Shown here: in pieces, positions 22,633 through 61,845 of the stretch
Position numbering within the stretch: the stretch's first letter is position 1
Layout: every line of letters starts with the position of its first letter
Source of the DNA: Candidatus Faecousia faecigallinarum
GTDB lineage: Bacteria > Bacillota > Clostridia > Oscillospirales > Oscillospiraceae
DNA length: 64,000 bases
Assembly: GCA_018712145.1 (NCBI GenBank)
Contig: DVHJ01000081.1
Span: 1-64,000 of the forward strand
Direction of reading: 5' to 3'
The notes under the pieces: model-generated
What the model was told of the DNA's origin: nothing
Databases searched by the model: none
Seen by the model: only the letters and a program-made list of their open reading frames with translations
Position numbers and translations under genes: made by a program

Positions 22633-22747
22633 TTCAAATGCGCAGAAAGATGGAAGCGGGGTAATGGGCTGCCGTGGGCAGATGTGCTTAAGCACATCAA
22701 GTTTGACCAAAAGCACCTGTTTATACAAATTCGCACACTTTACGGAT

Positions 22748-22812
22748 TGATATGCTCCCCATCGTGTAGCCTCGAATTTTTTGCGAGTGTCTACTCCATG
22801 GGGAGCATATCA
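22748..22812. repeat. Family-B palindromic element, copy 1 (65 bp)
   Basis: TGATATGCTCCCCATCGTGTAGCCTCGAATTTTTTGCGAGTGTCTACTCCATGGGGAGCATATCA; 15 bp perfect terminal inverted arms. Confidence 0.92.
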
Positions 22813-22880
22813 GATTTTGCCACAAGTCCGTGATTTTTGCAGAATGCTGTAACGCTTTTGTCCGTAAGATTTGCCGGTCA

Positions 22881-34731: not shown

Positions 34732-35466
34732 TTACCTCGTCAAAATTAATACGGCCACGCCGGTAAATTCCCCCAAGGTCAGGGCAAAGCCGGAGATATC
34801 TCCGGAAATGCCCCCCAGCTGCTTACAGCCGTACCAGGCGGCTGCCCAGTAGCCCAGGCAGCCTACCAGGGGGGCAAGACCCTGGGGGCCCATCCACAGG
34901 GTGGAGCAAGATGCGGCTAGGGCCATCGCCGCCAGGGCAATTTTTTTGCCCCGGTTACCGGCGGCCAGCCCGGCGTACTGGCTGGACGCCAGGGGGCGGA
35001 GGGACAGCACGGCAAACCCGGCGCAGGCCCGAACCGCCACGGGAATCAGGGCCAGGGGCAGCAGGGGAATCTCCCCGGCGGAGAAAAACAGGCACCACTG
35101 GGCCAGGAGCAGCAGGCCAAGGCAGATCACCGCAAAGGCGCCGCAGTGAGAGTCCTTCAAAATCTTCCGCCGGGTTTCCAGATCCCGGCGGGACAGCACC
35201 GCGTCGCACACGTCCATAAAGCCGTCCAGGTGGAGAAAACCGGTGGCCAGCCAGGGCACCGCCGCCAGCACCAGGGCGTATACAGCAGGGGGCAGGCCGG
35301 GCAATGCCCAGGCCGCCAGGGCCCACAGGCCCCCAACGATTCCCCCAACCAGGGGCAGGCATACCATCATCTTCGGCCTGGCCTTCTCGTCCCACCGGCG
35401 GAAGGGGCAGGGAATGGCCAGAAACATCCCCCAGGTCATGAAAAAGGCAGATATCCACTGGTTCAA
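34732..35466 (-). CDS. cobS: Adenosylcobinamide-GDP ribazoletransferase (cobalamin synthase)
   Basis: RRWDEKARPKMMVCLPLVGGIVGG, TGFLHLDGFMDVCDAVLSRRDLETRRKILKDSHCGAFAV. TTG 35466 has SD GGGAGG upstream; TTG 35490 also possible. Confidence 0.92.
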   Translation of the reverse strand: MNQWISAFFMTWGMFLAIPCPFRRWDEKARPKMMVCLPLVGGIVGGLWALAAWALPGLPPAVYALVLAAVPWLATGFLHLDGFMDVCDAVLSRRDLETRRKILKDSHCGAFAVICLGLLLLAQWCLFFSAGEIPLLPLALIPVAVRACAGFAVLSLRPLASSQYAGLAAGNRGKKIALAAMALAASCSTLWMGPQGLAPLVGCLGYWAAAWYGCKQLGGISGDISGFALTLGEFTGVAVLILTR

Positions 35467-35490: not shown

Positions 35491-35507
35491 CCGGCAGGCA
35501 GCCGGCC
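35491..35507. repeat. 17 bp direct repeat, left copy (candidate target-site duplication)
   Basis: CCGGCAGGCAGCCGGCC; identical to 35714-35730. Confidence 0.9.
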
Positions 35508-35713
35508 CAGCTTGTCAAAAAAGTCTCGCTTAAGTTCGCCGCTGCGGCGGCGAAACAAGTGAAAATCATTTTCTGCCGGGGCGTGTACCTGGCAGAAAAT
35601 ACATCTCAGGTTGCGAAGTGTGGGAATTGTGGGCCTACGGCCCACAATTCCTGCGCGTAGCAGACTGCAAACTTCTGTCGGAAAACCCCAAAGGGTTTTT
35701 TTGACAGTCTAAG
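35508..35713. mobile_element. Family-C MITE-like multi-hairpin insertion between cobU and cobS (~206 bp)
   Basis: Flanked by perfect 17 bp direct repeats; near-terminal inverted repeats AGCTTGTCAAAAAA / AGACTGTCAAAAAA (12/14); internal stems ATTTTCTGCC/GGCAGAAAAT and GGAATTGTGGGCC/GGCCCACAATTCC; no transposase. Confidence 0.75.
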
Positions 35714-36243
35714 CCGGCAGGCAGCCGGCCTTTGTGTACCCGCAGCATCCCCGCCTGGGCCTCGCAGACCAGGTCAAATTCCCCGGCCAGTCCCCGGCAG
35801 ATCCGGGCCAGCCCAGCCCGGTAGTCTTCCGTCCAGCCGGTGTACCGGCCGGCGTCCCGGAAAATATCGTCGGCAACGCACAGCACATGGCGGCAATGCC
35901 GGCCGAGGACCAGCAACGCCCGGAGCGCCTTTTCCGGGGCGGCGGGATTAAACGGAGAAAACATCTCATTGGCCAGCAGCGCGGTGACGCTGTCCAGCAG
36001 CACGGTGCCCTGGGCCGGCACCTGAGGCAGGGCCTGGATCAGGTCCCGTCCGGCTTCCACCGTTTGGAAGCCCAACCCTGCCCGGTCTGCCAGGTGCCGG
36101 GCGATCCGCTGCCGGTCTTCCCCGTCTGCCGGTTCCATGGTGGCCCAGTAATACAGCGGGCCATTCCCGGCCAGGGTGCAGGCTAAGGCCTGGGCCAGGC
36201 CGCTTTTCCCGCTTTTGCTCCCCCCAAGCACCAGCGCCCTCAT
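35635..36243 (-). CDS. cobU: Bifunctional adenosylcobinamide kinase / adenosylcobinamide-phosphate guanylyltransferase; C-terminus altered by insertion
   Basis: MRALVLGGSKSGKSGLAQALA; YWATMEP; TVLLDSVTALLANEMF; last ~25 codons lie within the family-C element. Confidence 0.9.
   Translation of the reverse strand: MRALVLGGSKSGKSGLAQALACTLAGNGPLYYWATMEPADGEDRQRIARHLADRAGLGFQTVEAGRDLIQALPQVPAQGTVLLDSVTALLANEMFSPFNPAAPEKALRALLVLGRHCRHVLCVADDIFRDAGRYTGWTEDYRAGLARICRGLAGEFDLVCEAQAGMLRVHKGRLPAGLDCQKNPLGFSDRSLQSATRRNCGP
35714..35730. repeat. 17 bp direct repeat, right copy
   Basis: CCGGCAGGCAGCCGGCC within cobU coding sequence (GRLPAG). Confidence 0.9.
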
Positions 36244-43321: not shown

Positions 43322-43428
43322 GGGCCTGTTGCAACTTGAATGATATGCTCCCCATAGTGTAGTCTCGAATTTTTTGCTTTTTCGAGTGTCTACTCTATGG
43401 GGAGCATATCAAATTTTGCAGCAGGCCC
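43322..43428. repeat. Composite nested palindrome: family-A arms enclosing a family-B element
   Basis: GGGCCTGTTGCAA (43322-43334) pairs with TTGCAGCAGGCCC (43416-43428); family-B copy occupies the loop. Confidence 0.85.
43341..43411. repeat. Family-B palindromic element, copy 2 (71 bp)
   Basis: TGATATGCTCCCCATAGTGTAGTCTCGAATTTTTTGCTTTTTCGAGTGTCTACTCTATGGGGAGCATATCA; 17 bp perfect terminal arms plus CTCGAA/TTCGAG inner stem. Confidence 0.95.
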
Positions 43429-61594: not shown

Positions 61595-61647
61595 AGCGGC
61601 CCGTGTCCTGCCGGCCAGGGATGCGCATGAAAGGGCCTGTTGCAAAG

Positions 61648-61718
61648 TGATATGCTCCCCATAGTGTAGTCTCGAATTTTTCGTTTTTTCGAGTGTCTAC
61701 TCTATGGGGAGCATATCA
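61648..61718. repeat. Family-B palindromic element, copy 3 (71 bp)
   Basis: 69/71 identical by eye to copy 2; preceded by family-A left arm GGGCCTGTTGCAAA (61633-61646). Confidence 0.95.
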
Positions 61719-61845
61719 CATTTGCTGGAAGTACTGTGCTTTACACCAGTGGCGGGCAGGTAGGCACCAGGTTCTGTTCCATTGCAACGCTTTTGTCCCG
61801 GGCTGTGCAGTGGCAATCTGCACTGCTGCCGGGGGGATTGGTTTT

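Follow-up and report, generated by a model that had tools for sequence, protein, structure and literature searches.

IS1630 of Mycoplasma fermentans, a member of the IS30 family, reportedly targets and duplicates inverted repeats. PMC3317919, which cites the IS1630 work by title, lists duplications of 16-26 bp. In staphylococci, IS1272 and TnSha1, which belong to the IS1182 family, target hairpins and terminators by shape, not by sequence (PMC4923244, PMC5678879), and PMC5678879 drew duplication of the whole hairpin only as a hypothetical pathway b. Bacterial miniature inverted-repeat transposable elements (MITEs) and small structured repeats such as BOX, RUP, SPRITE and QMITE are described, in the relevant part of PMC10969869, as short, multicopy and intergenic, with transcripts predicted to fold. 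Here we describe a 206-bp insert between cobU and cobS of Candidatus Faecousia faecigallinarum, in a 64,000-nucleotide stretch of contig DVHJ01000081.1 (the window). We conclude that this insert is very probably a non-autonomous IS1182-type element, a MITE, which entered the junction by an insertion that duplicated a hairpin.

The insert (35508-35713, + strand, opposite to the cob operon) lies between two copies of the direct repeat CCGGCAGGCAGCCGGCC, at 35491-35507 and 35714-35730, which are 17 bp long, 100% identical and 223 bp apart from start to start. This repeat is itself palindromic and forms a stem-loop, CCGGC-AGGCA-GCCGG followed by CC. An earlier note on this DNA missed the palindrome, which turned out to be central to the interpretation, but its description of a perfect 17-bp repeat around 206 bp, with near-terminal inverted repeats, strong hairpins and no transposase-like open reading frame (ORF), is correct in each respect. 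The left terminal inverted repeat, CAGCTTGTCAAAAAA, occupies 35508-35522 on the + strand, and the right one, AGACTGTCAAAAAA, recognized as a match to the end motif, occupies 35697-35710 on the - strand; the two agree at 12 of 14 positions when AGCTTGTCAAAAAA (35509-35522) is compared to AGACTGTCAAAAAA. When up to 2 mismatches are allowed, 5 matches to the end motif are found compared to 0.33 expected. The insert folds more stably than shuffled sequences (z of -8.5 as DNA and -7.4 as RNA), and there is no transposase ORF within its 206 bp.

Both genes of the junction are on the - strand: cobU (Pfam CobU, 35635-36243) ends inside the element and thus carries a foreign C-terminal tail, although its conserved domain is intact, and cobS (Pfam CobS, 34732-35466) has a TTG start at 35466, which was set by comparison with relatives. 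The earlier note had claimed that deleting the element would restore an overlap of the two genes, and joining the flanks reproduces this: removal of the element and one repeat yields a 185-amino-acid CobU ending in KGRLPAGWTVGGGLG-stop, whose TGA (35463-35465) overlaps the cobS TTG (35464-35466) as TTGA, with the Shine-Dalgarno motif GGGAGG upstream. With the element present, cobS in its annotated frame starts ∼144 nt beyond the new cobU stop. We observe the uninterrupted site directly in relatives, where that note had suggested looking for it: cobU and cobS adjoin without an insert in all 29 relatives in which the genes are adjacent, and the cobU TGA overlaps the cobS start in most of them, although these relatives belong to different species (cobU 36-52% identical) and thus do not provide an empty site from the same species. 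As part of the overall explanation, the insertion in all likelihood pulled apart cobU and cobS, whose translated regions had overlapped, and left CobU with its foreign tail; it may also affect cobS.

These flanks bear as well on the concern that the insert is an assembly artefact in which repeat copies were joined. The assemblies are drafts and some copies do lie at contig ends (L061, L063, L103 and L104), but we rejected this explanation, which we consider hardly credible, because the order of the flanking cob genes is conserved, the flanks can be joined in frame and then recreate the overlap found in relatives, and broken copies pair up via matching hairpins. In one genome, G019, contigs end inside the element at L061/L103 and at L063/L104, and the flanking hairpins match pairwise; thus, the assembly is interrupted by the element, and the contigs that belong together can be told from their hairpins.

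The element is dispersed in many copies. The 1.9 Mb draft of the host genome holds four copies with 93-100% identity, and a search of 60 relatives found the element in 13 genomes of the same genus and in one genome of another family; many of the genomes that bear it have at least ∼13 scored matches each. Records with an exact stretch of the core of the element are Oscillospiraceae metagenome assemblies. We aligned the flanks of 79 copies from about a dozen species of the genus. The two flanks share at least 10 nt in 59 of the 79 copies and at least 14 nt in 49, while mis-paired flanks used as controls reach 10 nt in only 0.26%. Similarly, a stem of at least 7 bp is found on both sides in 59 of the 79 copies; of random 38-mers taken from these loci, 5.8% contain one.

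The duplicated sequence is almost always a hairpin specific to the locus, present whole on each side, and many of these hairpins resemble terminators, with an A-run, a GC stem and a T-run. In 27 copies the duplication is exact from end to end; these duplications are 16-33 bp long, 24 of the 27 start with A, and their mean self-complementarity is 0.69 compared to 0.26 for background. In the host genome, the duplication is 17 bp at the window copy and 23 bp at L002 (AGAACAGGGAGGCAATCCCTGTT), while L003 has two related but diverged hairpins on its sides. Thus, the interpretation in the earlier note, that the insertion is MITE-like and duplicated a long target, is borne out by the multiple copies of the element and the long duplications at them, which that note had named as checks, together with the 29 uninterrupted relatives. 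That note had also offered a slippage-type repeat, an alternative that proves unneeded, since the duplications are whole hairpins and autonomous IS1182-family elements with the same ends behave likewise. A GC-rich, near-palindromic 17-mer, with eight matches at up to 3 mismatches in the window, could in principle have been duplicated by slippage or recombination around an insert that is not a transposon. However, the same insert occurs at numerous unrelated loci, and the hairpin duplicated there is particular to each locus; this multicopy evidence refutes the slippage explanation and leaves it practically no probability.

Two kinds of exception to matching hairpins were noted among the copies. 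At L059, L094, L112 and L115, the two hairpins have loops that are reverse complements of each other (TTTTT versus AAAAA at L059), which suggests that a hairpin flipped at or after insertion. At L075, L077, L108 and L123, the hairpins on the two sides are unrelated, perhaps due to recombination between copies of the element.

The ends of the element are held in common with autonomous elements of the same genus, namely IS1182-family insertion sequences (ISs), which carry the same terminus (CAGCTTGTCAAAAAA...). The left end of the IS1182-family IS at L129, CAGCTTGTCAAAAAAGTCT, is identical to the first 19 nt of the window element, and the right end of the window element, TTTTTCGACAG-CTG, agrees with that of another at L201, ...TTTTTCGACAGTCTG. 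Related ISs encode a DDE transposase of the IS1182 family (NF033551, PF13751, PF05598); the transposase at L131 scores 387 bits against NF033551 (cut-off 270, E 1e-115). Moreover, these ISs make the same kind of duplication: intact copies in the genus, ∼1.5-1.75 kb long, are flanked by duplications of whole hairpins of 25 bp (L130), 27 bp (L210), 34 bp (L201), 37 bp (L205) and 64 bp (L131), the last a perfect palindrome. The window insert is thus a MITE: short, lacking a transposase gene, with terminal inverted repeats that match at 12/14, dispersed in multiple copies, flanked by target-site duplications and sharing ends with an autonomous element. A search with the end-motif pattern for long elements gave, among the pairs listed, only short elements.

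If the same MITE with the same hairpin duplications were instead moved by an IS30-family transposase like that of IS1630, the match to published behaviour would be the closest available. We consider this highly improbable: of the 61 genomes sampled from the genus, only 9 have IS30-family transposases, the host genome yielded none, none of their loci has ends like those of the element, and it is the IS1182-family ISs that show both the same ends and the same duplications. An IS30 partner was sought in both the host genome and the genus and was rejected, as the ends do not match the element.

Several observations weigh against assigning the element to the IS1182 family and to insertion by hairpin duplication. 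An IS1182 transposase gene was not found in the host genome, a 97-contig draft with an estimated completeness of 98%. A MITE does not require a resident transposase. About a quarter of the 79 copies have no shared flank of at least 10 nt. In a few, the duplication is short and not part of a hairpin, as in the host-genome copy L004 with only AACTAT, or the hairpins on the two sides differ, as in L077. Finally, IS1272, the best-studied member of the family, is reported to delete or replace the hairpin without duplication (PMC4923244, PMC5678879). Because the host genome lacks an identified IS1182 transposase, we infer the enzyme that moved the window copy from the relatives, on the basis of shared ends and shared behaviour.

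In the mechanism that we propose, an IS1182-family transposase would act on the CAG..TGTCAAAAA ends of the element and would select a palindromic target, probably extruded as a hairpin or cruciform; at the window locus, this target would have been the small palindrome within the last codons of cobU. Each element end would be joined to one outer foot of the hairpin, the two joints being on opposite strands, and gap repair would then copy the entire hairpin and leave one on each side. The length of the duplication would therefore equal that of the hairpin, ∼16-33 bp for the element and up to 64 bp for an IS. The duplications of 25-64 bp at the ISs, including the perfect 64-bp palindrome, do indicate that a longer hairpin gives a longer duplication, which joining at the outer feet would predict; the cleavage geometry is the presumed part of this scheme. 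The target is chosen by the shape of the hairpin: with dozens of natural examples, duplications grow with their hairpins over a range of ∼16 to 64 bp, and this points to a transposase that reads the shape of DNA and cuts at the foot of a hairpin. An insertion that copies its target terminator instead of destroying it may do next to no harm, and this could account for the high copy numbers.

The interior of the element very likely forms, according to folding and covariance models, a structured, RNA-like core (35523-35668, read 5' to 3' on the + strand), which covariance model R1 recognizes at this copy with an E value of 8e-38. On this strand, folding predicts hairpin 0 (35535-35554), while helix 1 (ATTTTCTGCCGGG...CCTGGCAGAAAAT, 35568-35600) and helices 2-4, a long interrupted hairpin (35607-35667), are predicted from both folding and covariation. 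Helix 5 (35675-35707), beyond the core, is predicted from covariation and takes in the greater part of the right terminal repeat. Among copies from the genus, covariation is seen in the three main hairpin regions, with two-sided changes in 16 of 48 pairs (56 such cells compared to 10 in shuffles), and sliding the structure along the alignment drops pairing from 98.5% to below 50%. Of 297 genomes from across the order that were searched with the core model, 31 have matches, in 18 genera and five families and often with at least 10 copies, while a class-wide sample outside the order gave only three weak matches. In the order-wide alignment, which was fitted to the model and hence leans towards the structure, 27 of 33 pairs changed on both sides (273 cells compared to 80 in shuffles, 0/500).

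Among the copies in other genera, all located through the core, some show both IS1182-type ends and duplicated hairpins, with spacers of varied length and duplications of 26 bp (L276), 25 bp (L282), 28 bp (L283), 30 bp (L284) and 32 bp (L297), and further copies have only decayed ends (for example, L265 and L259) or lack ends altogether. The core may outlast the ends in old copies, or it may have a second route of spread. Loci in G026 (for example, L226) have variant elements in which the right end is longer and the 3' module differs (AACTTTCGTTTTTGACAGCCT), and their hairpins are duplicated in the same way. At L260-L264, L268-L272, L277-L281 and L286-L295, all in other genera, the core stands without clear IS1182-type ends or hairpin duplications; among such end-less copies, several directly follow a terminator-like hairpin on the left, and ORF calls did not bear out an impression that end-less copies lie directly against the stop codon of the gene to their right.

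These properties raise the possibility, more an addition to the MITE interpretation than an alternative to it, that the core acts as a functional RNA, either for the host or for the element, such as a small RNA or an mRNA-stability element, which is under selection and is only spread by the IS1182-type ends. The order-wide two-sided changes and the existence of copies without recognizable ends both speak for it. So do the G-U pairs of the core, some near-invariant, which are standard only on the + strand, where A-C is rarer (22 versus 9 at pairs with a Watson-Crick majority); this difference favours an RNA read in the orientation of the element. Moreover, in an orthologous pair from two species (L262 and L263), the core is 94.4% identical compared to 83.8% for adjacent intergenic DNA; this copy sits between lon-like and engB-like genes, named from their translated ends. 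However, orientation relative to neighbouring genes looks random, with no bias in crude ORF calls (7/7/5/5), the core-model search misses copies with a decayed core, and the structure could serve transposition instead. We put a function of this kind at somewhat less than even. Equally tentatively, the core could be a structured RNA family of the order, undescribed so far and with a function of its own, that has time and again been captured between IS1182-type ends and carried into transcription terminators by duplicating transposition, in which neighbouring genes keep their hairpin. It does look like an unlisted RNA family, spread by terminator-duplicating transposition: neither the element nor any of 20 diverse core loci scored above the gathering threshold of an Rfam family.

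Elsewhere in the window, three copies of a palindromic repeat of 76-90 bp with ends TGATATGCTCCCCAT...ATGGGGAGCATATCA (22745-22829, 43338-43428 and 61645-61735) likely represent another MITE family.

The element can be set against each of the described systems. It resembles BOX, RUP, SPRITE and QMITE in being short, multicopy, intergenic and predicted to fold, but differs in its duplication of a whole target hairpin, which the relevant part of PMC10969869 does not describe for those repeats, nor does that part mention IS1182; to Rfam families it has no likeness. In duplicating inverted-repeat targets it works like IS1630, but it is not placed in the IS30 family, as the transposase family is a different one and no IS30-family element with its ends was found in the genus. 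With IS1272 and TnSha1 it shares the targeting of hairpins, and its relatives with the same ends are IS1182-family by NF033551, but those elements are reported to delete or replace the hairpin, while here the whole hairpin is duplicated in most copies, so that hairpin-replacing transposition of the IS1272 type does not describe it. Hairpin targeting in the IS1182 family, with deletion, and duplication of inverted repeats by IS1630 in the IS30 family are thus published. In the open-access literature we found no report of a MITE with IS1182-type ends that duplicates hairpins, nor of this core or a structured repeat like it in the order. For the IS1182 family, the duplication of whole hairpins fills in an outcome that the cited papers had only proposed.
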